A stretch of DNA of 64,000 nt from Polytrichum commune (lineage: Eukaryota; Streptophyta; Polytrichopsida; Polytrichales; Polytrichaceae). The notes under the pieces are model-generated. The model was given only the letters and a program-made list of their open reading frames with translations, did no database searches and was not told the DNA's origin. The position numbers and the translations under genes are program-made. The stretch is from positions 19,220,001 to 19,284,000 of the forward strand of contig OX485806.1 of the NCBI GenBank assembly GCA_950295325.1, given 5' to 3'. This document shows, piece by piece, positions 15,756 through 45,924 of the stretch; within the stretch, counting starts at the first letter, position 1, and every line of letters begins with the position of its first letter.

Positions 15756-17300
15756 TTGGCATCCAAGACCCATGAACACCCCCAAGCTTACCACACGAGT
15801 TGCGGAATTTTATTGGTAGTTTCTACTCGATCATACTTGCAAGAGGTCCAACATCTAGAAAATGTGGTGTTTGGAGAGGAAAGAATGAAGAGAGGCGGAG
15901 CCCTCCGCACGCAGCCTCAACAAAAGACAAAGAAGTGCACCCCCAAGCTCCGGCCAAGAGCGACGCCGAACCACTACGACCTAAGCACCCAAGCACAAGA
16001 CGGCAACATCCCCGTAGACACCCAACGCAAAGACAAGCAGCCAGCAGAACGAAAGCACCGAGGAGACGAACAACAAACAACGCATGCGCATGGCTACCCG
16101 CCAGATCTAGATCTAGGAGAGTTACGAAGAAACCCAACATCAACACTTCATCTTAAGGGTCTAACTTTCTTTACAAAATGGGTGCTCATCAGCACCACCC
16201 TCCTGTGTGGTCTCACACACCTCACCACCCTACCAGCAATGCTCAAACCCTCAACACACCCACAAAGAACACACTCACTACAATACCTACCAACATTGCT
16301 AAGGTATTCACTCCTCACACAAACTACCATCAAGTGCAAACTACCAATACCATCCCTCTTAGTCACTCAATACCCTACACTGCCATACTACACACTACAG
16401 CCAGCAGCCTCCCACACAGATCTGCTCCCACCAGCCGGGAGCACTCCACACGCGCTCCAGCCGCCAGCGCCACCCACACCACACCACCCAAAGCACACAA
16501 CAGTAAGTCCAAAAAATCGCACCTACCACCAAAGAAACACACACTCCAACAAAACTCGAACACAAAAATTCACACTACCTATAAGCTTACCTTCGACAAG
16601 CCGACGCCGCCACCGCCGATCTCCACATACGCAACCTCCACCTCTGCACCAGCAACCCCCACACACCCACACAATGCACCCACACCCACCCACCCTAAGA
16701 ACAGAACTTCCCAATCCTAAACCCAAAATCCGCCGACCCCCTGACCCTCTCCAGCCACTACCCGCCATCGACCAGCTCATACTCCGACCCCAACACCCTC
16801 AAAAAAATGCTAGCCAGACTACACACCGCACACGACCCAGACACGATCTGAATCCCGACAACCCAAACACCCCACTTAGCCCCCTCTCTCTGCCGCACAA
16901 AGGATACACGCACATGCACCCGCAATCACAACCTCCCCACACCCACCCAAGGCGCCCACAATCACCCCCCCCCCCCAAGAACAGAAATCCCCTACCCTGA
17001 CTCCAAAAAGCGCCGACCTCCAGACCCTTCACAACAAATGCCCACCTCCGAACAACGCACACCTTGACATAGCCCCCTCCAAAAAACCAACCGGCAGATT
17101 GCCCTACATACATGAACACAACACGATCCCATTCCTGACAGCTCCGATACTACATTCAGCCCCCTCCCTCTGCCAGCCCAAGAATGCACACACAGATACA
17201 ACTCACCTAAGCCAACCCAATCTCCAAACCCAGAAAACCGCCACCAAATCCCTCAAGCTATTCAACCCACCTACAAACGTCACCCTGAGGGAAGCTATCT
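15756..17300 (+). other. A/C-rich tract with long open frames, possibly a retroelement fragment
   Basis: The plus strand is strongly enriched in A and C, like the retrotransposon at 26-34 kb. That makes long open frames likely in several registers: 15756-17000 codes 414 residues rich in Pro, Thr and His, and a second long frame overlaps it. A sub-repeat of roughly 250 bp is visible: 16695-16900 and 16970-17200 share CCGACC-CC-GACCCT, then TAGCCCCCTC-CTCTGCC. No RT, endonuclease or other motif is seen. It may be a 5' piece of a related retroelement, or simple compositional sequence; I do not call a gene. Confidence 0.35.
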
Positions 17301-17385
17301 TATGAGCGATGAGCAGTGAGCGGTGAGCGGTGAGCAGTAACACATGAGCAATGAGCAGTAACATATGAGCAATGACTCCAAATTT
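17300..17385 (+). repeat. Short tandem repeat of GAGCAATGAGCAGTAACAT type
   Basis: About six imperfect 10-20 bp units built from GAGCGATGAGCAGTGAGCGG and GAGCAATGAGCAGTAACAT occur between 17303 and 17372. Confidence 0.6.
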
Positions 17386-17499
17386 AGTAAAGACACACGG
17401 GTTTAGGGTACATAACCAGAATTTTGACAAATTAATTGCATATTTTCAATTGTAAATTGCCAGTATTTTAAATGAAGCACACGTGAAAGGGCCCTATTG

Positions 17500-18270
17500 C
17501 CATGGATCGTTTTAAACACTTTCAATCCATTGCTGATTTTTATTATAATAATCCAAACCAATACATGTCATTTATTGACATCCTTATACATATAGTTACA
17601 ACCAACACTTGCACAACTACTCACATTCCACAACACCAACAAGTTCAAGTAGGTGCATAACCTCATTATATGTATATGTAGGTGTCATAGTTGTGAACCA
17701 CTCAAACCGCTCACGGGCTGAGTTAAGGCCCACAATCTGCAAAAGCAAGGAAATTAGATATTAGAAATAGTCAATATGTAGATAGCTACTAGATTTTGAG
17801 ACATCCGCCTGTAGATGCGAGTTGTGTAAGAGACTGGTATTAGGTCTGGATCAACCCGGGTTCGAATCCGGTTGGTTACATTGACTGGTGCTATCCCAAA
17901 TTGAGCTAATGATAAAGTAGGAATAATCTATAGGCGGATACCAAGAAGACGTTACTACGCGGATGTGCGTAGAATCTTCTCGATTATTTTTTATTTTTAG
18001 AAACTTGTTATTATTTATCCGTATGAATCAATCAAACCGCTCACGGTTGGGTCGTAGTCTAAATAGAATTAAAGTTACTGAATCATTTGAAATACTTTCA
18101 GTCCATAGCTAATTTTTATTATAATAATCCAAACCAAAACATGCCATTTATTGACATTCAAATATATGTTGCTTAATAGAACACTTGCAATACTACTCAC
18201 ATTCTACAATATCAGCAAGTTTAAGTAGTCGCATGACCTCATTATAGGTATATGTAGGTGCATGAATGAA
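17500..18270. repeat. Direct duplication of the transposase 3' end, flanking a tRNA-like insert
   Basis: Segments 17519-17700 and 18098-18260 share CTGATTTTTATTATAATAAT or a variant, AATCCAAACCA, ATTTATTGACAT, ACTACTCACATTC and TATATGTAGGTG in the same order. The right copy overlaps the last codons of the minus-strand SWIM-domain reading frame. AAACCGCTCACGG occurs near both 17705 and 18035. The duplicated segments flank the insert at about 17797-18000. Confidence 0.65.
17797..18000 (+). mobile_element. Possible tRNA-derived SINE
   Basis: GGGTTCGAATCCGG at about 17867 matches the pol III B box (GGTTCGANTCC). A weaker A-box-like TAGATGCGAG lies about 45 bp upstream, and the segment ends in a T/A-rich tail (TTTTTTATTTTTAG). 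Spacing and overall shape fit a tRNA-derived SINE. A cloverleaf cannot be drawn, so it is not a tRNA gene. No clear target duplication was found. Confidence 0.4.
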
Positions 18271-19980
18271 CTTGTCACTCTCGTAATCCACCTTGCACAA
18301 AAATCTGAACACATAATAAAGATGTTTACAATACACCCATTTTCTTTTTTTTCCCGATGCATGAGATGACATTTTCGTGAAATCCGGGCATGTGCAATGC
18401 GGGATGTCGCCAATTGTGACATGGTAGGTGATATCCTGCTTGGAGACAATGTTGATTATCACTCCAAAGCCTGGATATGAAATGGCAGTGACCCCAACCA
18501 CAAGGTAATCTTCCATGAATCCGGTGCTCTCTCATTTGTTTTTGTGATCCGCCAGCGGTGCTGTTGGATTACGATGCATTGTCTTCCCAAACCTGAATGT
18601 AGGATGGACGTCCGGGTTTGGTGGCATACAAAAATGCGAGCGAGGGTTGGAAAGAATTGCGATTGTTGAAAACCTACGACAAGGGGATAATGCCTCCCTA
18701 TGCTGTAGTTGAAATTCAGCATCTTCAAGTGCCAGAACCTCCTCTCTTGATAGATTGGTACCTATCTTCACCGACCACGTGTTGGGTACTATAGGCCAAT
18801 CAAACACATATTTCTTCTTACTGCCACTCACACAACGCTTGATATCGTTAAGGCAAAACCAAAATTCATACTCCACATTGTTGGGAGAGCAAAATTCTTT
18901 CCTGAGCCATTTGTATGTTAGATCAGGTGTGCCATGTTTCCCAATCCCGACTTTGGTATTGCACATAGTCCCTGTAATGGCCTGCAGTGTCCAACATCGT
19001 TTGGTTGAGTTGGGTGGCAATCTTGCAATGTGTCACTTAGAAGCAAGACAATCAGTCTCTAACACAGATGTGGTATGAGCCACACTATGAATTGCATAAT
19101 TCAACGATTCCTCTATGCATTGACGAGTTGCTCGGGTGTTGGGACGATGAATGAAATAGTTCACTTAGTCGGGTCGATGAGAGTCACAATCAACACCCGG
19201 TGATAGGTTCGGTTTGCTTTTGGTGGAACCAAAGAGCTTTGACCCTTCCAATGCACAATATGTAGTGTTGACGTCTTCTGTCCCTAGATAAGATTTCATG
19301 GCATCAGCCAACATTTTTGGATCTCCACACCTGGCAGCCGCTTTGAATTTCAAGGATGCCAAATCAAGACCTTTACCATCAGACCCCCTTTCAACCATGT
19401 CTGGTAATTTGCAATTTGCATGAAGGCACGGATCATGTCATCCATTGTAGCTTCATATAAACAAGTCATTTTGTTGCCGGACTGTTGGAGCCATTTTTTG
19501 TGTATAGTCTCTGCAAGGTTGCATGTTGGCATTTCCGCACGTTATTCTATTGTCATATCCTATGAACAACACACAAATATGAGGATAATAAAAATATAAG
19601 ATATATATAATAATGAAAGAAAAATGAATGACATTGAATAATAAATTTTGATATGTACTTACAAATAGTATATGACCACCCCATTGTCTGTATCGAAAGT
19701 GCCAAAAATCCAACCACTCTGAAAGGCCAAAAATGCCTTCTACCAAGGTAGATCCGGATGACAACCACCAAGAACAAATCACATGATACTTAGTCTCGGC
19801 GTCGTCCATTGTTTTTGCGTCTTTGTAATCCTTGCATATTTGCTTGTGTTGAAACTGCAAGGATGGTTTGATATATTTTTGGGTCACCTTATTCAAGCTC
19901 GTAGACCAATGGAAAAGACATGTACGCTGACGTGCAACCATGGAGAAATATGCCACACAATACGAAAAAGAAGAACAATC
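18193..19980 (-). pseudogene. Degenerate Mutator-like (MULE) transposase with SWIM zinc finger
   Basis: Several minus-strand frames read in order from right to left. They are 19956-19453 (contains CKDYKDAKTMDDAETKYH), 19532-19350 (NLAETIHKKWLQQSGNKMTC), 19398-19165, 19020-18532 and 18516-18193. The last carries HCTCPDF, then KRKWVYCKHLYYVFRFLC, a C-x-C-x(n)-C-x-H SWIM finger as found at the C-terminus of MULE and FAR1-type transposases. The N-A/E-x-x-H-x-x-W pattern upstream also fits the post-catalytic part of such transposases. The frames are broken by shifts and stops and no DDE core is clearly readable. No terminal inverted repeats were identified. A domesticated gene with introns is less likely, given the breaks. 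Confidence 0.55.
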
Positions 19981-20367
19981 TTCTGAGGCGGAGATGGAGG
20001 TAGGTTGTACGAACGAAATTGTAAGAAAATCACTTTAAAATCAAAATAAATTTAGAGGTATGTAATGTATACTATATTGTGCATCCCGAGAATACGATTC
20101 CAACGGTATATAGCATGAACAAAATGATTTTATTTTGCATGTTTTAGAGCCAAAAAACAATTAGAGCATCTTAGATTCTTCTAAAATCTTCAAAAAATGA
20201 AGATTTTATGCATGAAATCTAACCATATTAATTTCAGTAGACTTTGGCGATTTATGTAAGACTATTATCTACGCACTTGATTTTTTTCGGAAATAAATTA
20301 GAATATTTGAAAACGTTATAGCAACTCCGCAAAGTGACTCAAATCAAAGTATATTTCTCTTCCAAAT

Positions 20368-20953
20368 GGGTAGCCGTTAACGGCCACCCTTTTTATGATG
20401 CCAACTTCTGTGTTCTAGTTTAGGGTGGCCGTTAACGGCCACCCTTTGTATGATGCTAACTTCTATTTTCTAGTTTAGGGTACCCCTTCTTGGGTTTCAG
20501 TCTTCATTTAACAACATAATTTCTTTGAAATAAAATCACATATATACATATATTTCTTATGTCTGTTCCATCTAAAAGTCTGGCCGTTAACGGCCACCCT
20601 TGGTTGCATCTCAGATTTATTGGTATATGTGTTTCCACCCTTATTGAAATTTCATATTCTTTTCTATATATGTTTATTTTTTCATGTAGACACTCATTTC
20701 CTTCATTTTTTTCCTCCAACAAGGGTGGCTGTTGACGGCCATCCTTATTGAAATTTCAGATTCTATTCTATATGTGTTTCTTTCTTCATGTATACACCCA
20801 TTTCCTTATTTATTTATTTTCAACAAGAATGGCCATTAACGGCTAGCCTTTTTGAAATTTTATTTTATTTTTTATATGTGTTTTTTTCTTCATATATACA
20901 TTCATTTCCTTAATATTTTGTCCTCCAACAAGGGTGGCCGTTAACGGCCACCC
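20368..20953. repeat. Array of six copies of a 22-bp palindrome centred on GTTAAC
   Basis: Copies lie at 20368-20389, 20423-20444, 20578-20599, 20723-20744, 20827-20848 and 20932-20953. The half-site is GGGTGGCCGTT followed by its exact complement; copies 2 and 6 are perfect. The last four are embedded in a ~105-bp tandem unit that also carries TATGTGTTTCTT-type and CATTTCCTTA-type stretches. Variants in copies 4 and 5 include partly compensated changes. The array lies in an otherwise very AT-rich stretch. Confidence 0.9.
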
Positions 20954-21125
20954 TTATTAAAATTTCAATTTTTTTTGCATATGTGGTTTTCCCTTATGTA
21001 TACTCTCACTTTCATAAATATTTTTATATATTATTTTAGTTTGCATATGTGATTTCTTTCATATGTATATATATTTTTTAATTTATTTTTATGTTTCATA
21101 TGGATAATATTTTTTTGCTTTAGAT

Positions 21126-21700
21126 ATGGAAGTTGTACCTCTTTCTGAAGATCAATTGGATTTGCAATTGCATGTATTTTTTAAGAAAGAAACTGTCAAC
21201 ACATCTTCCCGTCTTGAACGGTGGAAGTATCAACCAAGGGCAAAATTAAAATTCAACATTCTATTATGTCGAATGGTTGCATTGCTTGTTGTTAGGTCTT
21301 TTTTGAAAAATAACGTTATGAACCTAGCTGCACATTTTGTTGCTTGTGGTTATATGGAGGGCAATGGGATTTTTTTACGTGGCCTTGGAAAATAATAAGG
21401 GGAAAACAATAAATGTTACCGATAGTATCATTGAATTTTGGAGTGAAAATTGGGTACGGACAAATGATGCATTTGAAAAAATATTGCAAACTTATGAGGA
21501 TCTCCAAGTTTTCTCTAGCAAAATATTCATGGTGTGGGATGAAAACCACCGTTTGCAAGCATAGTTGTCCATTATTAATCGAGATCATACACATGATCAT
21601 GCTTGACATTATGCTGTTGAAAGTATTATTTTGGACGTCAAGGGAGATATTGCAACCATGTTGGCAGCTTTACATGAAGTGGTAATTTCTTCATTATTCT
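21126..21700 (+). pseudogene. Unrecognised coding fragment with one frameshift
   Basis: Frame 21126-21395 starts with an ATG and continues in frame 21337-21564 after a shift at the T-run near 21370. Beyond a TAG at 21562 similar protein-like sequence continues (INRDHTHDH, then VESIILDVKGDIATMLAALH). The reconstructed order suggests a helical, Trp- and Glu-containing protein of about 190 residues. I recognise no family. Neighbours suggest a transposon origin, but that is inference. Confidence 0.35.
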
Positions 21701-22581
21701 CTTTTTATTTGTTCGGTTTTTTTGGTTTTTTTTAAAGTTTTTTTTTATTGTATATATTTTTTCCTTGGCTTATCATCCAAACATACAGTGAAGATGAAGC
21801 AGAAGAGAACACCACCCCTCCAACCAGCCACCTATCCGTTCTTAAAGGGCACACCACTCCCTACCATGATGTAGACATTGACATGCAGCTAGAAAATGTC
21901 TCACCCGAACACGGTGGGAGCTCGCTCCAAATATCAACATCAGAAGACGAGTACATGGCCACCCTCAACCAAGCCGCCACATCGTTAGATCGATTGGACA
22001 CCTTCAACATTGTCGATGCAACACCTCCAACACATACACACAAGAGTCCTAGGAAGGAGAACACGAATGACACCCAAAGTGCCAAACGGAGGAGAAGTGA
22101 AGTAGGGAGACATGCACACAACTCCGAAACAAGCAACCCCCAACACACGCGGGAGGCCATCCCTAGCATCGACATTTTTTTAAGAATGTGGTTAGGCTTC
22201 TCCATACATGAAGCAATTGCTACACAAAACGGTAAGGAGATCATCCTTGAAACTCGTACCAATGATGAATTTGAGAAGTTAGGGGACCCCCCGAATGAAG
22301 TCATCGAATTCAAGTCCATTAGACGGGCATTCCCAAGGGTTCCACAAACATGTTATCCAAATGAGAGACCGGACGCGGTTCCCGGCCACTACCTCCACTT
22401 CACACAAATCCCAAGACACGACAGAGTTGATCCCATGACCGGTTTATCTGAAGGTTTTCACGTCACAATCCGCTACGACCAAGGCTTCAAGAGCATGAGC
22501 CGACAAGAAGCAAGAGGAGCATGTCTCGAACAGCTACACCAAATGGACATCCCCCTCGGCTCCACCTACTCCAACCCGATT

Positions 22582-23853
22582 GACATAGGGGTCAATGCCG
22601 TCACCAAGAATTGGGCCGGATTTATTAAGGTACACCTCAAAAACCCCCAACAAGATGGAATGGCACTATTTAGAGGCCATAGAGCATTTGTTATGAAAAT
22701 GGAGGATGGTGAGAGGACTATAGGCAAAGTAGAAAAAATATATGAACTAGCCACCAAGGCCCTTGCTAGTTTTCCTTCACTTAGCTTGACCGCCTTTCCA
22801 ACCTAGCAAGTGCCACGAACGCTAACCTGCACATCCCACGCACATGCATGGTTAGCTCCCAAAACCGCGGACCTTCAAGCTCATGGCTTAGTCACCAAAC
22901 CCTCCTACACATGCATTCGGGACTCTCCCCTTAGCAGGTAGCCAATGGCTAAGGTGGACTTCCATCCATGAAAGTCCACTCTTGAGTTGATCATCGTGTT
23001 GCCAAAACAACACTACAACTACCCGGAGCACATTGCCAAGTATGCTCCGGGGGGGTCGGTCGGCTAAGCCGCCTCACCCATATAAGCCTCTAGGACTTTG
23101 GGCGGGGCCCCTACCCCACCTTCAAGTATCCTTTTGTCTCTCTACAAGGGTTGGGGCCAAGTAGACATTTTCCCTTAGCCGCTGGGGCTAGAACCTCCTA
23201 GCAGCTTCAGACCACCATAACTTCTACATATGATGTCTGATGCTCTCAAGCGACCACTCTATCGTCACCTACTCTTTGCGTAGATGCCGATGGACCCCTC
23301 ACTTACCCCATTCGGGAAAGTATTGAGGAAGTTATGGCTCTTCAAACCTTGGCAGTCCCGGGCACCAGTCCCAGGTCACTGCTGTCCTGGGACAGCGCCC
23401 CACTCAAATTGCCATATCTCCTAGCTAGCACCTCTGATTAAGGGTGTTCCTTAGCATTCTATAATTCCACCGCCATAAGCTACTCATAACTTATGGCCTT
23501 ACCCTCATGACTCTTAGTCCCCGTGGGTGAGAGGCGTTCTCAACGCTCGGGGCCCTCACCCACACTAAGAGTACTTGGGCCCTCTCACCAATGGCGCCAC
23601 AAGTCCCGGGTGTCACTCTGGGGTCCCCCTTGTGCCCATGGTCTTGCGGGCACTCCTCATGGAGAGGTGCGCGACATAGGGGTCAATGCCGTCACCAAGA
23701 ATTGGGCCGGATTTATTAAGGTACACCTCAAAAACCCCCAACAAGATGGAATGACACTACTTAGAGGCCATAGAGCATTTGCTATGAAAATAGAGGATGG
23801 TGAGAGGACTATAGGCAAAGTAGAAAAAGGATATGAACTAGCCACCAAGGCCC
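22582..23853 (+). repeat. 181-bp direct duplication flanking an inserted 0.9-kb element
   Basis: Segments 22582-22762 and 23673-23853 are both 181 bp, start GACATAGGGGTCAATGCCG and end GCCACCAAGGCCC. They differ at only a few positions (for example GGCACTATTT against GACACTACTT). Between them lies 22763-23672, 910 bp. Both copies keep the reading frame of the gag-like protein. Confidence 0.9.
22763..23672 (+). mobile_element. ~0.9-kb dispersed element, copy 1 (possible solo LTR)
   Basis: It shares ordered blocks with 44843-45800. Examples are GTGGACTTCCATCCATG, CTCACCCATATAAGCCTCTA, GTTGGGGCCAAGTAGACATT, AACCTTGGCAGTCCCGGG and ACTCCTCATGGAGAGGTGCG. It begins TTGCTAG after CCC in both copies. 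If read from TG (22764) to the CA of GCGCGACA it has the TG...CA ends of an LTR, and a CCATATAAGCC box could be promoter-like. No 5-bp target duplication was confirmed, so the class is uncertain. Confidence 0.6.
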
Positions 23854-24599
23854 GCAACCTTAGGTTACACCTCAAAGGTGAAAATCTTCGTCACGAGCAT
23901 GCATGTACCATCTTTGAATCCCTAGTCCAAGAGAGTTACTACAACGGACACCAACATGAGTTCATGGGACTAGCCAAACCAGAGATAGATAAGAATTTTG
24001 CTTTTCTTACTATTACCACGGAGGAGGCTAGAGACATAGTACTTAAGGAAGGACTTGCATACAACAATGAGCGGCTACAAGTGAGCATCACACGAGACCG
24101 GAGCGTTGGTAATCCCTCGGAGCTCCAAATTAGCACAACACTTGTCGCCAATAATCTTCCCCAAAGAGAGTCACAAACTACCATCACGAAGGCGATCAAG
24201 CAACTTTTTGGCTCGGACAACATCATGGGCATTAGCTTTGGCAACACCAACCAAGACACCACCAACAAACAAGCGGGTTGGTGTCATATCCAATGCCTCA
24301 ACACCACGGTCTACACGGAGTGGATTCACAAGTCAACCTTCATCCTTGGACGACGGATAGATTTCATCCCACACCGCGGGAGTATTGATGGATCGGACCC
24401 CATCAAAACGGCGATCCGCCTCGCACAAGCCCCCGCACGTAAGGCCATCGCGGACAAAATACAAGGTATGGAAAACGCCACCAACCTCAACCCACTCATC
24501 ACCGAGAGGTATCTCACCAAAACCATGAAAGAATTTGAAGATAAGCTAGATAATATGAGCCCAAAATGGTTGCTCATATTTGTTTTATGCTTAAAATTT

Positions 24600-25640
24600 A
24601 CTTGAAGTTGCAATTGACGTCGTTATTAAAACAACAAAAAGTATTAAAAAGAGTGAGGCTTGGTGTGGAGTTATGTTTTAGGCCTTAGGCTTATTTAGTG
24701 TGGTTAATTAGAGGGTTAGTGGCATTAGGGGTTGGTTTTGGTTAAGTGAGTTGGTGTTTGATGAAGCAAGGGGAAGGGCCTTGGGTTTAAATGTTTGAAT
24801 TAGGGCATTCCCATGTTAGTTTAAGGTTGGGGATTTAGTAGATAAGCTTGGGGGTTCCTCTCCACAAGGGTTTTTATGACCTTGAGGTTTAAGTGTGTGC
24901 TCTCTCTCTCACTCTCGCACTAGGAGAGAGGATGAGCTGGGTTTTGAGTTCGGAGATAGACTGGTGGATTCGGCCAAGACCAACTGAGTTTTGAGTTCGG
25001 AGATAGACTGGGGATTCCGCCAAGACCGGCTGAGTTTTGAGTTCGGAGATAGACTGGGGATTCGGCCAAGACCAGCTGGGTTCAAGTTCGGAGATAGACT
25101 GGTGGATTTGGCCAAGACCAGCTGAGTTTTGAGTTCGGAGATAGACTGGTGGATTTGGCCAAGACCAGCTGGGTTGTGAGTTCGGAGATAGACTGGGGAT
25201 TCGGCCAAGACCAGCTGGGTTTTGAGTTCGGAGATAGACTGGGGATTCAGCCAAGACCAGCTGGGTTTAAGTTCTCGGGCTAGTCCCGGGTCCACACTAA
25301 TTACCACAGTTGAATTAAGGTGGGGGTAGTAGTGGCATCCACCTTGTGACACAACATAGGCTAGTTAGTTAGGATTAGCATATGGGGTTATTCTAAGTAA
25401 TTAGTTAATCAGTAAGTAGGAAAACCACAACATGCTAGGTGGTGGCATTAAGTATTCATTAGAGGTGTGGGTTTTACGGTGGGGTGTATTACGGGGGTGA
25501 CATTAGAGAAGAGCGTTTTTCAACGCTTGTATCCTCGCCATGGAATAAATTGGGGTGCCAAAATTGATGTGAGATGCAATGGGGGTTAATGATGTGGGAA
25601 GATTTAATGAGGCTAGCATGAATGTGAGCCCCGCGCCCTC
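24600..25640. other. T/G-rich insertion within the gag-like region
   Basis: The composition changes sharply from A/C-rich coding-like sequence to T/G-rich sequence at about 24570 and back at about 25650. It carries a minisatellite and no gene. TGAGCCC occurs at both edges (near 24560 and 25625) and might be a short target duplication, which is unproven. Confidence 0.4.
24945..25265 (+). repeat. 46-bp minisatellite, seven units
   Basis: The unit contains GAGTTCGGAGATAGACTGG, then GGATTCGGCCAAGACCAGCT. GTTCGGAGATAGACTGG occurs seven times, spaced 44-48 bp. Minus-strand open frames across it are a consequence of the repeat and are not called. Confidence 0.9.
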
Positions 25641-26076
25641 ACCCGGACTACGACGCATAAGGGTGAGTGGTTTGGCCTCACACTAGACGAGAGGTTTGGC
25701 TCACTCTCCACAACAATAAACAATCACACGGATAGGAAACATGAAGCTACCACAACAACCATCACCAACCACTCCACCAACCTACACGCGCTACTTGGCA
25801 CCATAGCCCATGAATTTCAACAATCAAATATCCGCATGCAAAGCTTCATCACCGGCCTCTCCACCGCCGCGCCGGACATAATGCACCGCACCGCCCCACC
25901 ACCGCCACTTGGACCCCACACGACCGCCCCCCCCCCCCCCCCCCCCTTTACCACTCCAAGCCCCCCCGGGCTTTCAAGGCAACCCACAAATGTACCACCA
26001 AGGACCTCACCCATTTAATGGATAGTGCCCACATAGCACATACCACAAATGGCCTCTCTACCTTATATGTTATGTT

Positions 26077-27939
26077 TTGATATTATTATACAATAAAGAG
26101 TCTCAACTCCCATCCCCTCCCCAAGGGCTTTTATACATCGTCTCCCCTCTCACATACTCACTCTATGGTAAAAACTGCAAATACACACTAAAACTAGTAT
26201 ATATGCCCTCCAAAGACACCCACACCACACTACACCAATCAAGACATCGTAACCCCCTAAAAGCAAAACCCCATAAAATCATATCACAACTCCACCTTCA
26301 AAAAATAAAACCACCTAGCATCACACCCCTCGTATGGCTAAGGTATATCACCACCACCCACCAAGAAAGTCACATACGCCATAACAAGCATATTACCTAC
26401 CTTCACACTTATAAGTCTACTCTCCAAAGTGGGCCACCAATCAATATAAGCCAACACACAAGGTCCACACAACCAAACATAAGATGTCGAAATAAATACC
26501 ATCCCCACACCACAACAACAACTAACATACCACAAACATCCCCCACCATAGAGCTCCTATATAGTACCTACCCTACAACATACTACTTCCATGGAAAAAT
26601 GCACAAATACATACTAAAATTACTGTATAAAACCACCAACAACACTACCGCCATACTTCACCAATCAACTCGCCATAAACTCATAAAAGAAATACCCCGC
26701 AAACCATTATCAAAACCCTACACAAAATCACATTCCCACTTACAAAAGATAATATCACCTAACCTAACACTCCCCCTATGGCTAAACCTTATCACCACCA
26801 CCAACCACAAACGCCATGCATTCCAAAACAAGCATGCCCCCTACACTCGCACCCATAATACTACTCCACAAAATGAGCCTCCAACATACACAATCCATCA
26901 CACAAGATTCACACCAAATATGACCAATCACATATCCCCCATTAAAAACCTAGATCAACAAGCACACATACCATACCAAGGACACCATACACAATACCAT
27001 ACACAATACACAACACTAAGAAAACCCCCCACCCCAAACATATTAATCCACACCATAACTTACATAACCCATATACCCACCGCACACATCCATAATCTCC
27101 ACTACGCCCATAGACCACACGATACCACAATATATACACCACACATACACAACACTCACCAATGTAACCATAGAAAGACTACCTCACACACACACAACCA
27201 CCACCACCACATAAACAACAACCTATATACAAATCACAACAACACAACCACACAACCACACAACCACACAATCATCCCCATTAATATAATAATACACATA
27301 GGCAACATTTACTACATAACACACACACACCACAAAAAACCAAAAATTCAAACCATAACATATTACACTTGGAACAACTCTACACTCATACTCCTACACG
27401 GAGACATTGAACTAAACCCGGGGCCACTCTCAACCATCCTTAAAAACCTTCCCAAAGAATACACACAAAGACAAAAACAATATTTTATACCAAATACCCT
27501 AACACTCAAACCTCAATACGCCCACCTTGAAAAATTATTTGAACCCCACTTAAACAAAAACACCCCCAACCCCCAAAACACCCCCGACTCCCAAGAATTA
27601 ACACACCTAAAAAACCACTCATCACTCCTCTCAAACTACCCCACACACCACCAAATATACGCCCTTATCACAACATATAGCCCACAAACACAAATATGTA
27701 TTAAAAAAATGATTAACAAACTTGACCCAAGATACTTAACCATCCTAAGACGACTACAAAAAATACCAATGAATACCCACCCACCCCCATCATACGAAAC
27801 TAACCTACATACCCCAACAATAACCACCATACCACAAGCTTACTCCATCATCAATGACAAAATCGCTAAGGGAGTACCCATAACCACAGAAAACGTCCAA
27901 AATAAAATATCCCACCTCCCAAATAAAATAATACAATAA
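26077..27939 (+). CDS. Retrotransposon ORF1 with internal domain duplication and 2A-like motif
   Basis: This is an intact frame of 620 codons, although the first ATG may not be the real start. Residues ~19-130 and ~160-275 are a diverged duplication: both have G-K-x-x-K-Y-x-L-K-L-x-Y, LHQS, HLQKI, a PLxWL stretch and ITTT in the same order. Residues ~330-420 are rich in His, Thr and Asn. Residues 437-450 read LILLHGDIELNPGP (27385-27426), matching the 2A consensus D-(V/I)-E-x-N-P-G-P including the preceding Leu-rich stretch. At such motifs ribosomes skip one peptide bond before the last Pro. It would release a ~449-residue upstream product and a downstream product of ~171 residues. No zinc knuckle or RRM is recognised. 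A stop at 27937 is followed nine bases later by the next ORF's ATG. Confidence 0.7.
   Translation: MILLYNKESQLPSPPQGLLYIVSPLTYSLYGKNCKYTLKLVYMPSKDTHTTLHQSRHRNPLKAKPHKIISQLHLQKIKPPSITPLVWLRYITTTHQESHIRHNKHITYLHTYKSTLQSGPPINISQHTRSTQPNIRCRNKYHPHTTTTTNIPQTSPTIELLYSTYPTTYYFHGKMHKYILKLLYKTTNNTTAILHQSTRHKLIKEIPRKPLSKPYTKSHSHLQKIISPNLTLPLWLNLITTTNHKRHAFQNKHAPYTRTHNTTPQNEPPTYTIHHTRFTPNMTNHISPIKNLDQQAHIPYQGHHTQYHTQYTTLRKPPTPNILIHTITYITHIPTAHIHNLHYAHRPHDTTIYTPHIHNTHQCNHRKTTSHTHNHHHHINNNLYTNHNNTTTQPHNHTIIPINIIIHIGNIYYITHTHHKKPKIQTITYYTWNNSTLILLHGDIELNPGPLSTILKNLPKEYTQRQKQYFIPNTLTLKPQYAHLEKLFEPHLNKNTPNPQNTPDSQELTHLKNHSSLLSNYPTHHQIYALITTYSPQTQICIKKMINKLDPRYLTILRRLQKIPMNTHPPPSYETNLHTPTITTIPQAYSIINDKIAKGVPITTENVQNKISHLPNKIIQ
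27400..27426 (+). other. 2A-like ribosome-skipping motif GDIELNPGP
   Basis: The nine codons encode GDIELNPGP in frame with ORF1 (residues 442-450). The Leu-Ile-Leu-Leu stretch just before it is typical of functional 2A sequences. 2A motifs are known from picornaviruses and from some APE-type non-LTR retrotransposons of animals and trypanosomes. Confidence 0.8.
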
Positions 27940-27947
27940 CTAACTAA

Positions 27948-29316
27948 ATGTACCCACAAATAACAGGATACCAACCCAACACACATATATCTAACTATGA
28001 TACCCCACCCATACACACCAGGCCAAACAACCTAACCACTCAAACCCTGAAAATAATCACTTGGAACACCGGATGTATTAACTGTAGCCTACCCGGTATC
28101 CAAGAGCTCACCCAAACACTACACAACAATCCTCACATTATACTCATCCACGAAACCAAAATCCCAAAAACAAAATCCACATCATACATAGACCACCAAC
28201 TAAAAGAATACAAAATCATATACAACAACTCCAACACCACATCACAAAAACACAATAAATATGTGGGCCCCATACAAAGCTAGAGGTGGCATCCTAGCCA
28301 AGATACCAAAATCAATATACACAAACGAAAACATCACCAAAGTACCAACCCCAAGCTCCATCTCACCCTACCTACAAGCCATAATAATCAATAACAAACC
28401 ACTAACACCGCTAATCATCCTAAACATGTACATGCCATCACACTTAGAAGACGAGTACCTAATACTCAAAATCCAAAACCAAATCCAAAATATCATACTA
28501 CAACACCCCAAATATACCATCATATTAGCCGGAGACTTTAACTGTGATATATTACTACAAGGAAGATCCAACAATAGCATTACAATCCCGCCTAATACAG
28601 ATGACCAAGAATGGGCCTGCTTCATACAAAACAACGGACTCAAAGTGGTCCATAACCCAGTAAACTTCATAAGGCAAGGAGGCCACAACTACACATCAAC
28701 TAGCCATATAGATGGCTTCTACACCAACGACCCCAATATCACCCATCTTCATAGCCACACGTTAACCAACTTAAATCAAAATTCGAATCATTACCCGGTC
28801 CAACTACAACTAGCCCCCAATACAATAGTCATAAAAGAAACCACCACCCCCATAAACACCCCACGAATTAAATACCCCATACCCCTCAACAACCTCCAAA
28901 ACCTACAAACAACCTTTATAGGAAAACAAAATATAACAATGAAAAACCTCACACAAATACTCCAACAAGAACATCTTACCCTCACACAATGGGAAGACGT
29001 ACAACTCAAACTCCAAGAAATTACCAACTCCCTCAGTCAATGTATAAAACAGACATGCATGTCACACCCCACCCCACTACTACCAAATAGGGTAAAACCC
29101 CAAGGAGGATTCCTTCCCAGGACCCAACAAAATAAATGGAAGCACCAATTGAAAATATATCACAACACCCGAAAAGCCATAAGAGCCGCATGTCACTACC
29201 CGCACACACAACTACACAACCACTCAGATATAAAAAATCTTCAGCTAATACGAAATCCCAATATTCCACCACTACCCCCCACCCCACAGAAATACACATA
29301 TGGATTGCGTAGCTAG
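27948..29316 (+). pseudogene. APE-type endonuclease domain of the retrotransposon (frameshifted)
   Basis: Frame 27948-28283 carries the N-terminal motif KIITWNTGCI, then IQELTQTL and HIILIHETKI (the catalytic N and E positions of AP endonucleases). A one-base shift near 28262-28275 moves the frame to 28261-29316. That frame holds RGGILAKIP, LIILNMYMPSH, ILAGDFNCDIL (catalytic D and N), RQGGHNYTS, SHIDGFYTND and SNHYPVQL (the S-D-H motif, with Asn for Asp). Domain order and spacing match LINE endonucleases. The rest of the second frame, to 29316, is an RT-proximal linker rich in Gln and Asn. The frameshift inactivates this copy unless sequencing error accounts for it. Confidence 0.8.
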
Positions 29317-29617
29317 CCACCATAGGAAAAAACGCGAAGATAGAAGCCCACAAAATCATAACCAAATAAACTTCACTTAACTGCAAAACAATCATTAATA
29401 AATATAGAAACCTACTAAATACTAAACCCAAAATAAACCACAAAAAAATATTTCACCCAACAACCACTAACACACTTGATTGTATACAAAACCCCAAAGG
29501 CCAAGTCCTCACCAAACCCGCCGAGATAACCAGGGAGATATACCATACCCAACAAACCTCATTCTAAAGACAAGCCCCCCTATGTGAGGACACTACGGAC
29601 CACCCTAATACGTACAT

Positions 29618-31567
29618 ATGTGCGGTACGAAAATATCCATGGCACTCACATCAAGGAATCATCCTAGAAAAAAATGCAACCTTAATACACAAATAAATAA
29701 CCAATTCACTAAAGAAGTCTACGATTGTTGTGTCAAGCGACTAACAAAAGGGAAAGCCCCAGACCCAGACAATATTCCAAATGATATTATTAAAACACTA
29801 CCAACACAATGACATGACCTCCTATACCTATTTTTCAAACATTGTTACAAACAAAAAATGATCCCGCAATATTGGAAACATAGTAAGACCATATTATTAC
29901 ACAAGAAGGATGACTTCATCCACATATTCAACTATAGACCAATCTCACTAGCCAATATAATCTACAAATTATACACTAACACACTAATATCACTCCTAAC
30001 AAGCTACGGAGAAAAACATAGATTATTACACTTTAGCCAAGAAGATTTTCGACCACAACGTAACACCTCGAGATAAATTCAAACAATTATAGCAACCTTA
30101 GAAGACGCTAGACTAACCACTAAAGATATATACCTAACATATATAGACTTTAGAAATGCCTTCGGCTCTATAGACCACGCAAGACTCCTAGCCACCATGG
30201 AGGACCTAGACTACCCATTAGACGCGGTAGAAATCGTAGGAAATATTTACATAAATTCCACCACATCATTTACCGGGAGTCATTTTGGCACGACGCTCCC
30301 AATAGAAATAAGCCGAGGGACAATACAAGGGGACACCCTTAGCCCGTATCTTTTTATCATTTTTCTTGAACCACTACTAAGATGGCTCGAGAAAGATAAC
30401 ATAGGTTACCACTTCAACACATCTCCTGCCACATGCACCACAACCGCATATGCGGATGACATGGCTATTATAACGGACAACATACTACACATTCAACCAC
30501 AAATAACCAAGCTCCAAAAATTCGCGAAATGGTCTTACATGGACCTCAACCTGTCAAAATGTGCCATTACAGGATGTTCTAATAAATCTAAACTAAAACC
30601 CACTACCTTCAAAGCATATATCCAATCACAACATATTACCTACAACTCCCAAAATTTCCCTATCCTCACCCAAAACGAACCATATACGTATTTAGGAATA
30701 AACCTCACACCATCACTCAAATAGAACCTACAAAAAGAAATAACGATGAAGAAAGTCAAACAACAAAGCCAACTCCTAACTAGCTCACCGGCTAGCCTCA
30801 CACAAAAAATCAAAATCCTGAATACAGTCATTAAACCACGAATAGCATACGCCTACTACGCCGTCCCATTTTCCAAACCATATATTAAAAAATTAGACAA
30901 AATCATTAGCAAACTAACCAAAGAAATTTGCAATATCCCCAAAAGCTCGGCCAACATTCTTACACACCTCCCACAAGAAAGCTTTGGCATTAATGTAACC
31001 TCCCTACTACCCGACTACATCCAATGCATAGGACAACAACTAATCCAAGCACTTAATGACCCGGAGCAATTATGCATTATATACCAAGGGCTAACCAAAC
31101 ATATAGCGGCCAAGTACGGTGGGGCCCGACACCTCTCCAAACTCAAATAACAAGCATGTGTACGATCCCTTATAGCTAGGACACTTTTTCTCCTTGAAAG
31201 AGAATACGAAATCCACGTCCACTCTACAAGCCAAACATTCCCCATCAAAGAAACATCACTAGAATTTATTTTGAAAACCAACCCAAATTATAACACCCTA
31301 ACGGATGTATCGAAAGCCAAAACCCAAAAATATCTAGACAAACTATACATATATGGCATCACCACACTAATACAAATCCAAAACCCTACTACCAAAGCCA
31401 TACTAACCCCGAAAGAATTTCAATCCACATACAAACACATACCTAAAACCATCAAAGAGACACTCCAACAAGCAACAACAATATTCCCCACCCCACCCAC
31501 AAACTCTACAAACCCAATACAACAAACACCACCACAAAATGAGATCATGGTAAACATCCCCCCCTAG
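29618..31567 (+). pseudogene. Reverse transcriptase domain (single frame with five in-frame stops)
   Basis: One frame runs through the whole interval, ended only by the stop at 31565. In-frame stops occur at 29810, 30074, 30722, 31148 and 31565. Motifs in order are KGKAPDPDNIPNDIIK, NYRPISLANIIYKLY, LTYIDFRNAFGSID (motif A; the usual AFD is AFG but the upstream Asp is kept), ISRGTIQGDTLSPYLF (motif B) and TTAYADDMAII (motif C, catalytic YADD at 30449-30460). SYMDLNLSKCAIT (motif D) and YTYLGINL (motif E) follow. A thumb-like region continues to about 31150. This is a LINE-type RT. The retained reading frame between stops suggests decay mainly by point transitions. Confidence 0.88.
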
Positions 31568-31749
31568 GACAAGCAATCCAAACAATAATAAAAGAAAATA
31601 CCTCCACCAAGAAAAGACAAATGGGGTGCGCACGCATTAAGGAAGAGCTACCTTTGCCAATGGCAAGCCCTGCAAGGCATCATACAACAATGGAGAAGTG
31701 AGGTAGAACTACTACACCCGGATAATATACTTCTAGACTATAACATACT

Positions 31750-32910
31750 ATGTATCACACAAAGCAAGCCGAACTTTTAGCCACCCAAACATACGCTAAC
31801 TGCCTCAATCACATACAATCAAAAGACAACAAATTCATACACCCCCCTCTCCACATCACCAATCTAAAACTATCCATACAAGAATGCAACCTGGATAAAG
31901 ACATCCAAGTAAACCAACCAACCATCCAATTACACAACTCCGAAGCCAACATATATGACCAAAAAGAAAACTACATGGCCACCATCACTACAGAAAGACT
32001 ACAATGGCTATGGAACCAATTCTCCTACCACCACTTCTCACAAAATACAAAAGCCCTCCAACTCCCACCCCAAAACTTTGAAACATAAATACTTTGGTTA
32101 ATACAACGATACATAACCATACTCCCCAAAAGAAAGCCAAAAAACATACAACCCCAAAACATGCACCATACAATACATCCGACAATTATCAAAACACTAA
32201 TAGATTCCCTCAAAATCATGCACTCCTACTATTCATCCCCACTTACATGCCCCACACAACTCACACAATATCACTCACCCCATAACCGCGACATAATATT
32301 TGGCTCCATCGGACACGCACAAACCGCTAGATGGAAAGGCATCGGTCTAGCCTACCCCACAGACCACAAAACAACCATCGAAGCCATCCACTGGGCTAGA
32401 ATGGCGGCCAAAGAAGACTCAAACACTATCACCATACTCATAATCAATCATAACGACTGGACCACACAACAAATCCCACTTACCACAAGTAGCGACATAC
32501 ACACCCTCGCAACCATCCCTCCACACACCATACTATATAACCCCACGCTGGAATGGCCACAATATTACCAATACGTAGAACCCTCACTCACAACAATACT
32601 ATGTATACATAACCACGCCAACTTCACACCAAGCCTAAAAACCCCACAAGAACTTGTACAAGTACTAGAGCATACCATCAACACACCCATAGACACATTC
32701 CCCATCAAACCCACAAAGCCAAATTACCGCATTAAATTCTCAAACACATGGAAAAACGCCCCCATAAAAAACATCCCCCACCTACAATCCCCCAATCAAA
32801 CCTCCCAATTAAATACTACCGCCAACACCCCCCCAAATTCCACCCACAACAATGCATGTACACAGATGGCTCATTCATCCCCCCAACTAAGAACTCCGAA
32901 GGCCGAATAG
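31750..32910 (+). pseudogene. Retrotransposon linker region between RT and RNase H, function unknown
   Basis: One frame runs from 31750 to 32910 with a single TAA at 32086. The second part is an uninterrupted run of 249 codons, long for a decayed element. It contains a distinctive block from about 32300: FGSIGHAQTARWKGIGLAYP, then TDHKTTIEAIHWARMAA and TITILIINHNDW. The density of Trp, Gly and acidic residues suggests a folded domain. I do not recognise it. Near its end the frame overlaps the start of the RNase H frame, implying another shift. Confidence 0.55.
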
Positions 32911-33290
32911 AGGGTGACATCACAGGTTTAGGAGTATATAGCCCCAACACAAACATCCGCATATCAGAACGACTACCGGGATATCAAAACATACTCAGAG
33001 CATAATTAAATGCTATACTCATAGCAGTCAAAACCATTCAAGTCACACAAATCGAAACACACATCTTTACAGATAGCCTTAATAGCATATATCTACTCAG
33101 TAACCATATACAACACCCAACCTTACAACACCACCACCCGGACAAAATCCTCATAGCCGCCATAGTACACCAAATTTACTTAACACCACACTTAGTACAT
33201 ATACATAAAGTACGGGCCCACACGTGCATCAAAGGAAATGAAATAGCCGACACACTAGCCAACGAAGGAACAAATAAAGAAAAACCCACT
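32850..33290 (+). pseudogene. RNase H domain of the retrotransposon
   Basis: Motifs in order are MYTDGSF (first Asp), a stop codon TAA at 33003-33005 exactly where the catalytic Glu is expected (ILRA-stop-LNAILIAV), IFTDSLNSIYLL (second Asp), then HKVRAHTCIKGNEIADTLAN (catalytic His and last Asp). The stop is explained by GAA to TAA or GAG to TAG-type decay, or another single change. RNase H in this position, downstream of RT, occurs in I, R1/L1-plant and Dualen-type elements. Confidence 0.82.
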
Positions 33291-33543
33291 CCCACACCCC
33301 ATATACACATCGCACATGCTACACCTTATCGGCTAACAAGTTGTCCCACCGCAACACGCAATGGGGCAATTCGAAACTTGCACACATTCATCACAAAAAC
33401 AAGAAATTAGGATGGCCCAACATAAACACCCATATGTAGATAAATGGCTCTCCAACGACCAAATAAACCACAAACTCTCCAACCACTTTTGGAAAAAAAA
33501 AAAATAACGGACGCCCAAATCACCCAAACTCTAAAATTCTGAT

Positions 33544-33876
33544 ATGCCCAATACATGGGTAAACCATAGAAAGAACATTTTCTGGCCCCTCAAATTTCAA
33601 AATCCAAATTGTACATTGTGCCGCAAAAACGAAAGAGACACATGGCCACACTTACTATCAACGTGCGAACATCCATACTTGAAGGGCCTAAGAATAGCAC
33701 GCCACAACAAGGCAGTACATCTCATCACCCAAACACTCCAAGCCAACAAACACACTAGATACTACACACTAACAAACGCAGGTAATATCAACAACAACAA
33801 CCAAGAACAAACAATCCCCGAATGGCTCATTAATGCCTATGCCAACAAACCAGATGCCAGTGCCACGCTAGACTAA
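33544..33876 (+). pseudogene. CCHC zinc knuckle region preceding the C-terminal endonuclease
   Basis: The frame contains CTLCRKNERDTWPHLLSTC, a C-x2-C-x9-H-x4-C knuckle, followed by EHPYLKGLRIARHNKAV. In R2-like and Dualen-type proteins a CCHC knuckle lies directly upstream of the restriction-like endonuclease, as here. The frame meets the endonuclease frame around 33861-33876 through a one-base shift. Confidence 0.75.
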
Positions 33877-34271
33877 GACCCGACATCCTATGTATTATAG
33901 GAGCCCCTAACCACACCCCAACACCCATATTACCGTCACACACACGAACAATCCAATTCATTGAATTCACGTACTGTCATGACAGATTCCCAGAACAAGC
34001 CATAACACAAAAACATACCAAATACGATCCATTAATCAGCGCTATACAAAGCAAAGGATGGAAAAAAAACCCTCTTATAACCATCACAGCAGGGGTTAGA
34101 GGCACCATACACGAACAATCCATCAAAAAATTAGAAGACCTCAAAATTCCAAAACCTGCTATCAAAATCCTCATGAAAAACATACATCAAAACGCCATTA
34201 AATATCTCACATACCTCGTATTAAATAAAAGAAAACTTGATAACAAACAAAACACCGTTGCACCCCCCTAA
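33861..34271 (+). pseudogene. Restriction-like endonuclease (PD-(D/E)xK-type) domain of the retrotransposon
   Basis: The frame is open from about 33861 to the TAA at 34269-34271. It reads ARLRPDILCIIGAP (the P-D motif), IQFIEFTYCHDRFPEQAI (a strand with Glu and Thr in the D/E-x-K-like position), then KHTKYDPLISAIQSKGW, LITITAGVRGTIHEQS and a basic C-terminal helix ending KRKLDNKQN. The arrangement CCHC, RPD, then IEFTY and a conserved Lys fits the restriction-like endonuclease of R2 and Dualen elements. Catalytic assignment is inferred from motif order, not structure. About 130 residues are present, close to complete. Confidence 0.68.
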
Positions 34272-34475
34272 AAATTTACCCCCCCCTTTTTTTACATTAT
34301 ATTTTTTTCACTATACTTACCCTTTCTCTCTCTATACTAAAAGAGCCCACCTCCTAACGGAGGCATAACTCCCCATGCTACAACACGGCTCGCCGTGTTT
34401 AGCATTCAGACAACGGGCTCGCATTCACGCCGGTACATTGTACGGGCGTTACTTTTTCTTTTCTTTTCTTTCTAG
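34272..34475 (+). other. Retrotransposon 3' UTR with hairpins and TTTTC tail
   Basis: Hairpins occur at 34350-34363 (CCTCC, loop TAAC, GGAGG) and 34382-34399 (AACACGGC, loop TC, GCCGTGTT). A further GTAC-ATT-GTAC stem lies near 34432-34442. The region ends with CTTTTTCTTTTCTTTTCTTTC at about 34451-34472, which resembles the short 3' tandem repeats that terminate several non-LTR families. Such 3' structures are what the RT would bind for target-primed reverse transcription. Confidence 0.65.
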
Positions 34476-34479
34476 AAAA

Positions 34480-36400
34480 TGTGACTAGTTTTGCTCCTGG
34501 CCCATCACAAATGCTTCTAATATTCATTATCTCAAAGTATAATGCGAGTCCTCAACCCCCAAGAACAACTTTCATTTCTTAAGAATATGTCTCACATTAT
34601 TCCACGCAGAGAAGATGTAGACGCCATAAGATTATAGGTTATTAGTGAGCAGACAAACAACGCTTTGGCGAAAAGAATCCCAAGAAGATTTAGTACATGA
34701 TTAAATGGCTCATTTTGAAACGTGAAAAATGTGGATACCAAGATTGGGGTTTCATTGGATAACAAATCACCCACCCATCTCTTTTGATTTTGAATCTATT
34801 TTGGAAATGGACAAAGATATGCTTAAAGGTTTGGCTTCCACTTTGGGAGTAACTATGCAACAACCGGATAGGATCTGATGGGCTATTCTACAACAACTTT
34901 ATGAGAAAATTGACTTCAACATAACATGCTTGAAAAATCTCTCCATAAATTCAAGGACTTTCAAACAACCGTTTATGAGCTTCAAGGAAAATATGTAGCA
35001 TCTGTGGATGGCAATGCAATTGGTGGATAGTTCATATGTGGCGTAGAATTTGGAAAAAAATGGTCGGATCTTAAGTATCTTCATGCAAGTCATACAACAT
35101 TAAGCGAAGCTTTTTAGAACATTATACTCTTGCAAAAACTCACCTGCTTTGGAAATCTTGGATATGAAGAAGGGAGACACACTCAAAGAAGACAAATTAA
35201 TTTAGCTCACTATTTCACTTTCTGGTGAAGTTAACAATCTACAAGGCATTGTACAAACCTTTGAACAACATCTAAAATTGATGGAACAAAGGCATAAGAC
35301 TCATGAAAAAACTCTAACCCCTAGAAACAATGCATACCCACCGGTACACTTCACACTCATATGAAGGAATTAGACACCTGCATAATTAATTTTGAGACAT
35401 CTATGACCATATCAAAGTATCTTGATACTTCTCACATGTCCAATCTAGAAAGGGACATAATTGTACTACAAGACCATATAAAAAACCCATGAAAAAAAGG
35501 GCTACTATATGTGCATCTAAACTCAAAGATGATGGTCAAGCAAATTCTTTTCATGATTAAACAACACAACACATACATGAGATATTGATAGGGAAAATGT
35601 AGCTTACATTGAAAATTGTCTAATATGGAAGTAAATGATCATGAGAACATTCTCCAAATCACCCAAGGATTCTTACTACACACATTTGGAGGACTTCACG
35701 TATTTCAAAAGCTTGGGGGTTGGAAAACTCAATTTAGCTAGAATCCGCCCAATTATTTTCAAATGCATCAATTGGGAGACAAAAACAAACTACTTCAGAG
35801 ATTGCAAGAAATCGTAGGTACATAATTCGGACTTGATGAGGATAGCACGTGGAGGTTGCTAAATCATAAGCACCTTAACATGAGCAAGACCATCATTAAA
35901 GGAGGAGAGTGTTATAATAGTGGGCCTCGAGTTTGGGGGATTTGTAGTGAATGCCCTTCCCCCCAAGAAAACTGCATAACAAAACTTCCTTTCTTGCCCT
36001 TTGTGACACATAGCGTGCCATGCATGAAATTGAGACAAACAAAATATTTTCCAAATATTTGGCGCCAAACATGTGGCATGCCCTGCCCTCGAGGCCCTGC
36101 CAAACCAATGAACAAGGAGAACCGACACTTACTAATAGTCTAAAGGGTCCAATCTAAGGATCCAATCTTTTGATTTCCCGCTTTAATGAGATCTACTCAA
36201 ATGAGATTTATTTATGAGATTCTCGGTTCCCCAGGCCGATGGGTGGAAATCAAATTAGTAAGAAGCATTTCATTTTCACTCACCAATTGAGGTCCTCTAA
36301 GGCTTATTTGACCCCCCCTTTCCTCTTCTAACGGACAAAGAGCCTGGACATAGGCTTCATGGATATAGGAGGTGACAAGGTTTTGGGTCGATTTTTTTTC
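34480..36400 (+). mobile_element. LTR retrotransposon remnant with PPT and start of 3' LTR
   Basis: A polypurine tract AAAGGAGGAGAG (35898-35909) is followed at once by TGTTATAATAGTGGGCC, the usual arrangement of a PPT and the TG start of a 3' LTR at 35910. The preceding kilobase contains decayed gag-like coding traces, including FKCINWETKTNYFRDCKK near 35760-35817, which resembles an eroded zinc knuckle. The LTR end is not clearly visible; it may be near 36400. No RT or integrase is readable. Confidence 0.5.
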
Positions 36401-45800: not shown

Positions 45801-45924
45801 GACACAACATGTAAAAAGAAGATTAATTACCGTGGTAGGGTGTTTCTGCAATTTTTATTTGTAAAATAAACATAGGCTTGCTAAAAAACTCAAACACTTT
45901 ACTACACTATTTATTTCATTTAGT

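Follow-up and report, generated by a model that had tools for sequence, protein, structure and literature searches.

Positions 15867–34470 of a 64,000-nucleotide stretch of Polytrichum commune DNA (contig OX485806.1, positions 19,220,001–19,284,000; hereafter the window) represent, with a probability of roughly 0.87, a decayed and insertion-split copy of a Dualen/RandI-like non-long-terminal-repeat retrotransposon of about 12 kb that has been successful in this genome. The unit consists of a first open reading frame (ORF1) and an overlapping second one (ORF2), and the plus strand of the window from 26026 to 34268 forms one large ORF2 in broken frames. Its parts follow in the order 2A (StopGo) peptide, apurinic/apyrimidinic endonuclease (APE), reverse transcriptase (RT), PCIF1-type methyltransferase-like domain, RNase H, CCHC/RHN knuckle, and restriction-like endonuclease (RLE). 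Almost all long interspersed nuclear elements (LINEs) use one nuclease. A sequence-only reading of the same DNA had proposed a Dualen/RandI-like element at 26040–34475, with no mention of the 2A peptide, the methyltransferase-like domain, or ORF1. Its 3′ end was off by about five bases, whereas the true 5′ start lies at 15867; we set the bounds at 15867 and 34470 because exact 13-bp target duplications flank these ends.

Both nuclease modules lie in this one ORF2. Pieces translated from the broken frames matched the Pfam families Exo_endo_phos_2 (E = 1.4e-7), RVT_1 (E = 5.4e-23 and 6.4e-4), and RNase_H (E = 7.8e-8), and all the motifs previously named for an APE-type endonuclease N-terminal to the RT are present. 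After RNase H, the motifs CTLC..H..C, RHNKAV, and RPD..IEFTYCHD..KHTKY are found within 33610–34025, in agreement with the CCHC knuckle and RPD/IEFTY domain described earlier. The APE and the knuckle plus RLE are both under purifying selection. The median ratio of nonsynonymous to synonymous divergence (dN/dS) was 0.24 for the APE (range 0.09–1.39) and 0.12 for CCHC plus RLE, beside 0.15 for the RT, 0.18 for the PCIF1-like domain, 0.16 for RNase H, 0.37 for the 2A-to-APE stretch, 0.11 for a part of ORF1 (seven copies), and 0.45 for the ORF2 leader (two usable copies); the pairs are non-independent and include decayed copies. With two such modules in one ORF2, each under selection, and the RT in a clade of its own (see below), the proposed two-nuclease architecture is upheld.

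The genome searched (407.8 Mb in 64 contigs, with the window at C4:19220001–19284000) contains hundreds of relatives of the element. The RT search returned 528 candidates, and the 40 that were scored share 77–94% identity, the window itself aside. Further copies, which the sequence-only reading had called for, were collected from these matches: ten (c1–c10) were fetched for alignment, and eight align through the 3′ end of the window element, ending at window positions 34467–34475 with a tail of T4–5C repeats, while c5 and c10 are without a 3′ end. Exact target duplications of 12–16 bp flank six of the eight tailed copies (c1, c2, c3, c4, c6, and c7), the shortest being the 12 bp of c2; the chance of a 12-base match was estimated at 0.007 per copy. 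Five of these six are 11.0–12.8 kb long, and c7 (7.3 kb) is 5′ truncated, since it starts inside the shared part. All seven target duplications, the 13 bp of the window copy included, begin with T, perhaps in part from pairing with the T-rich tail. In c3, ORF1 is open over 1404 amino acids from stop to stop, and ORF2 is covered by two long frames that overlap, one of 1696 amino acids and one of 858, the latter holding a PCIF1_WW match (32.1 bits), RNase_H, and the RLE motifs together. Several copies change frame near 31565. Programmed frameshifting was considered and rejected in favor of decay or tract-length noise, because the C run at this place varies in length and the frames of c6 and c7 cross it.

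A second family in the same genome, L066, is open over 2512 amino acids (of a frame given as 2919) and carries the seven parts together in a single open frame, with motifs read by eye: DIETNPGP for the 2A peptide; QETK, GDFN, and SDHSPV for the APE; then the RT, a PCIF1-like domain (52.7 bits), RNase H, RHNKAV, and KPDILC..QFIEFTYTND..KIQKY. Because long open frames with the same order occur in the same genome, the two-nuclease order is not a product of chance. A scan of GTDB contigs with an RT alignment gave 17 loci, of which L001–L003 are the closest (35–36% RT identity). These are eukaryote-type LINE contigs in metagenome-assembled genome bins named as bacteria (Mollicutes, Clostridiales; B1Sed10, sediment by name), probably eukaryotic strays. 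The L001 frame, 3038 amino acids long and open on its 5′ side, contains Exo_endo_phos, RVT_1, and RNase_H together with RLE motifs; L001 presents the whole plan but the 2A peptide in one open frame, and L001–L003 share parts of the plan. No 2A peptide was seen in L001–L003, whose 5′ parts are incomplete. The end of L001 contains TCTTTTCTTTTCTTTTCT, which resembles the plant tail. Two viral-contig scans and a phage collection held no relatives.

In an RT tree of 20 rows with few references, the window, c3, L066, and L001–L003 form one clade with a support of 100/99. The five APE-labeled and seven RLE-labeled rows lie elsewhere, six of the RLE rows together (95/96). The window RT thus stands outside the five APE-only rows, contrary to the placement that the sequence-only reading had named as refuting, and outside the L1 clade as represented by human L1; the tree has no named plant L1 and no identified RTE row. 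The R2Bm sequence was left out, as were three of the 17 loci (L010, L015, and L016) for broken or short frames or for lack of a match to the RT query. Among the labels, the RLE of L009 comes from kinship and its zinc-finger part and not from RLE motifs, and the APE of L013 was assigned by eye. Support for the deep order is weak (66/66), and the tree has several long branches.

The motifs of the C-terminal module, together with a modest profile match, suggest that it is an RLE. RPD or KPD, E, K..KY, and RHN stand in register in the two families of this genome; of these, L001 shares RPD, E, and RHN. Aligned by hhalign with a profile of four rows taken as RLE-only, the knuckle plus RLE scored 31.8 (P = 4.7e-4), compared with 20.3 for the best of 30 column shuffles (probability 1.5%) and 14.6 for the reversed profile.

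Several observations weigh against a Dualen/RandI-like element. The HH probability of the knuckle-plus-RLE match is just 32%, and the RLE without the knuckle scores 17.1 (P = 0.045, probability 1.2%). Whereas the Pfam check that had been advised succeeded for the APE, RT, and RNase H, the RLE part matches no Pfam family. Its single-sequence structure model has a predicted local distance difference test score (pLDDT) of 53, and Foldseek and VIA gave no meaningful match. A tblastn search with L001 matches the knuckle of the window and not the RLE core, and the plant copies read EFT (T, not K, two residues after the RLE glutamate) where L001 reads ELK. Among the weak matches of PDB sequence searches with the RLE part, the sole retrotransposon protein was 8gh6/8ibw, presumably R2Bm, through the knuckle alone (E = 0.66, 0.42, and 0.19); unrelated chains were better in the search giving 0.66 (E = 0.46 and 0.63), and the search giving 0.19 had one further, unrelated match (E = 1.1). 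Moreover, c8 and c9 have no convincing target duplication, the whole L001 protein has no PCIF1 match at E 0.1, and with the window RT the R2 entry 8gh6 scores 68 bits by phmmer, below human L1 at about 75 bits. The likeness to Dualen was drawn from published descriptions of that group, and catalysis by each domain is predicted.

The EFT in place of ExK would suit a relic RLE, with only the APE cutting and the C-terminal domain retained to bind DNA or RNA as a scaffold. In R2-type elements the RLE acts together with a knuckle that binds DNA, which points the same way. However, PD, E, and K..KY are kept in both plant families, the constraint on CCHC plus RLE is as strong as that on RNase H, and EFT with K..KY occurs in L005 too, a row counted as RLE-only. 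We take the lysine of the K..KY helix to substitute for the missing K in the plant RLE, as in R2, and regard a mere relic as unlikely.

We find it improbable that the element is an ordinary APE-only LINE (L1 or I type, as in plants) whose RNase H and CCHC are followed by a chance resemblance to an RLE. APE-only elements can also have RNase H with a downstream CCHC (PMC5348765, PMC4640811), and the weak profile match of the RLE core alone, with Pfam and PDB searches that returned no RLE, would fit such an origin. Against it stand the motifs in register in two families and, in part, in L001, the dN/dS of CCHC plus RLE, and the position of the RT apart from five APE-only rows. Likewise, the window RT scored 106–107 bits against three R2 entries of the PDB and about 75 bits against human L1, the fourth R2 entry being the 8gh6 noted above. 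A chimera of a nested APE-LINE and RLE-LINE read as one element, to which the foreign stretches splitting the window copy could point, is very improbable, since eight of ten copies align with the window through the 3′ end and the open frames of c3 (858 amino acids, from the PCIF1-like domain to the RLE motifs), L066, and L001 (both nucleases in one frame) refute it unless they are assembly errors.

Between the RT and RNase H, PF12237 (PCIF1_WW) was matched at 26.1 bits, or at 31.6 bits when read through one stop, barely above the cut-off of 31.1 bits. PF12237 was matched neither by four shuffles nor by the sequence in reverse; one shuffle (E = 0.01) and the reversed sequence (E = 0.0055) matched other Pfam families, which gives a measure of how far weak Pfam matches reach. 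In the same genome, there were 697 first-look candidates, and 150 of the 150 scored exceeded the cut-off, with a best score of 55.6 bits and open frames of up to 2924 amino acids. An RNase H motif lay close to the PCIF1 match in all 20 loci returned. The 14 control genomes, a weak control because they are possibly prokaryotes, gave no match. In L001 the domain was recognized by alignment and as a cut-out, and all four rows of the alignment (A3) match at E ≤ 0.1; L002 matches PCIF1_WW by itself (E = 9.4e-6, 25.8 bits, below the cut-off). The NPPF motif is absent from the four A3 rows and, among the 20 genome loci, from the 19 in which this position was read. At this position, those 19 loci of the second family have HPHN (11), HPHT (6), or HPPN (2), the window family has YPTD (copy variants YPTN, YPID, and YPTY), and L001 has HPIY. 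Because the NPPF motif is lost, the domain is more likely a nucleic-acid binder, perhaps of cap or RNA, than an active N6-methyladenosine (m6A) methyltransferase. PDB searches with the domain returned nothing or an unrelated chain (E = 0.28), and its single-sequence structure model (pLDDT 37) was too poor for use. Between the RT and the methyltransferase-like domain, residues 1978–2023 of L001 and the like part of L002 form a Cys-rich stretch that by eye is PHD- or RING-like (zf-RING_15, E = 0.018, below the cut-off in L001); no such stretch was noticed in the plant copies examined.

At least one intact 2A core is present in all 11 copies, the window included; that of c2 has G for D, a variant permitted by the published consensus (D/G/C/N)(V/I)ExNPGP (PMC12846837). 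Shuffling the codons of the window ORF 20,000 times never produced the motif, and the strict DNA pattern matched the genome 255 times, compared with 0 for the reversed pattern; at least 32 different spellings occur among the 100 matches listed. Pairing was examined among the places listed on contigs C1 and C2, which comprise 99 of the 255 2A matches and 68 of the 150 scored PCIF1 matches. A listed 2A lies 4.0–6.3 kb upstream on the same strand for 37 of these 68 PCIF1 matches, with one pair in the opposite order and 0.18 expected by chance. The ORF2 leader contains diverged tandem duplications, with two intact 2A motifs in c8 and c9 and one intact and one decayed motif in c10. ORF1 is far more diverged among seven copies (median dS 1.6) than the ORF2 modules (0.14–0.29), as if 5′ modules had been swapped between subfamilies.

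These parts could act in the following way. At the 2A peptide, the ribosome is predicted to let the ORF2 leader go before continuing with the enzyme portion. The APE would nick the first strand at T-rich sites, and the short-repeat RNA tail would prime target-primed reverse transcription at the nick. The RLE and knuckle may hold or cut the second strand, RNase H would clear the RNA template, and the altered PCIF1-like domain may have an RNA-binding role. We infer a division of work between the two cutters. Tentatively, and with a less than even chance, the element may belong to a major land-plant branch that is active now or was so until recently. In such a branch neither nuclease would be dispensable and each would make one of the two strand cuts, RNA of the element itself would be captured by the altered PCIF1-type domain, and the 2A peptide would set protein output.

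Table 1. Parts of the retrotransposon copy in the window
Feature	Position	Strand	Basis
Left target-site duplication, 13 bp	15854–15866		Exact repeat of 34471–34483
Whole decayed element with later foreign stretches	15867–34470	+	Target duplications; alignment to own-genome copy c1
ORF1 region, 5′ part	15969–17286	+	90% identity with c1
Stretch unaligned to element	17287–21772		About 560 bp at this place in c1
ORF1 central part, split by insertion 22763–23672	21773–24550	+	95% identity with c1 over 21773–22762 and 23673–24550
Insertion inside ORF1	22763–23672		Flanked by 181-bp duplication 22582–22762 / 23673–23853, 97%
Insertion with tandem repeats inside ORF1	24551–25682		Not in c1; tandem array 24935–25274
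ORF1 3′ end	25683–26022	+	Contiguous in c1
ORF2 leader, AC-rich	26026–27402	+	Open frame; diverged internal duplication 26283–26470 / 26727–26914, 71%
2A/StopGo core DIELNPGP	27403–27426	+	NPGP at 27415–27426
APE-type endonuclease	28047–28800	+	Exo_endo_phos_2
Reverse transcriptase	29711–31093	+	RVT_1; tblastn with L001, E = 1.5e-69
PCIF1-type methyltransferase-like domain	31984–32556	+	PF12237, 31.6 bits, read through one stop
RNase H	32847–33260	+	PF00075; tblastn with L001, E = 1.8e-12
CCHC knuckle and RHNKAV	33610–33717	+	R2-type order; tblastn with L001, E = 1.2e-5 over 33466–33738
Putative restriction-like endonuclease: RPD, IEFTY, KHTKY	33870–34268	+	Motifs, profile match
3′ tail, short T4–5C repeats	34453–34470	+	Sequence
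Right target-site duplication, 13 bp	34471–34483		Exact repeat of 15854–15866

The insertion of about 910 bp at 22763–23672 has a 78% copy at 44880–45804, and the 181-bp duplication of ORF1 sequence that flanks it (22582–23853) is unusually long for an insertion. Positions 26001–30000 show extreme strand asymmetry, with an AC-rich coding strand and GC skews of −0.69 and −0.49. Outside the element, 14220–15183 is a tandem array of 12.9 copies of a 75-bp unit that is open as protein (CGYVGYLTNCDVNMNG repeat). The genes of the window include Root_cap, DUF538, DUF716, and Rhodanese. Root_cap and DUF538 are plant families. The genome has 13 dynein heavy chain matches, 12 of them above the cut-off; such chains go with flagellated sperm and do not fit a flowering plant or conifer. 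Seven large contigs (six with lengths of 42–78 Mb, and C6 with at least 43 Mb) might, as a guess, fit a moss with n = 7. Read from its genes, the host would be a spore-bearing land plant with flagellated sperm, so that the earlier description of the DNA as land-plant-like stands by way of its gene content.

Plant L1 and RTE LINEs have an APE, an RT, and often RNase H, and integrate by target priming. In contrast to the moss element, they are without an RLE and have an A- or GTT-tail (PMC9033089, where L1 and RTE are the sole LINE superfamilies named for plants), and the L1 row of our tree falls in another clade. R2-type RLE-only elements (R2, NeSL, and kin) share with the moss element a C-terminal CCHC, RHN/RHD, PD, E/D, and K..KY or K..YY, whereas their RT belongs to a different clade. 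To our knowledge, they have neither an APE nor RNase H. The moss 2A peptide fits the known core of 2A/StopGo peptides. Natural 2A peptides are known from viruses and from APE-type animal and trypanosome retrotransposons. For plant viruses, one study found no evidence of a 2A peptide (PMC12846837), and in the literature examined none is reported from plant genomes, for which the moss element would be a natural case. Like the PCIF1/CAPAM m6Am methyltransferases, the moss element matches PF12237 above the cut-off, whereas their NPPF (PMC8868631) is replaced in the moss families and L001; the module ties retrotransposition to an RNA-cap methyltransferase family.

The group known to combine the two nucleases is Dualen/RandI (PMC4640811, PMC3636483), with Dualen found in all species compared in one study (PMC8226300) and RandI listed for green algae in a table of another, and given there with (ATT)n and (CTATTT)n tails (PMC3747384). 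Its place has been taken as showing that the APE replaced the RLE (PMC4640811), and a two-nuclease element would then, by our gloss, be an in-between state. The two-nuclease state appears to be no relic here, being abundant in one plant genome with both nucleases under selection. Among the entries listed on RandI/Dualen, PCIF1 with retrotransposons or plants, and bryophyte LINEs, where subscription coverage is thin, no such element was reported; a prior report is possible, above all in Repbase. The Dualen literature examined, the founding 2005 paper aside, makes no mention of a PCIF1-like domain or 2A peptide. Kinship with Dualen is inferred from agreement with its published description in architecture, RNase H, CCHC, and the non-A 3′ tail. 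Similar to Dualen/RandI of Chlamydomonas and other green algae, the moss element unites an APE and an RLE, has RNase H, and ends in a short-repeat non-A tail. It differs from Dualen, as described, in its T4–5C tail and in three features that appear new relative to the literature examined: a land-plant host, as judged from its genes, a PCIF1-like module with an altered motif, and a natural 2A peptide.

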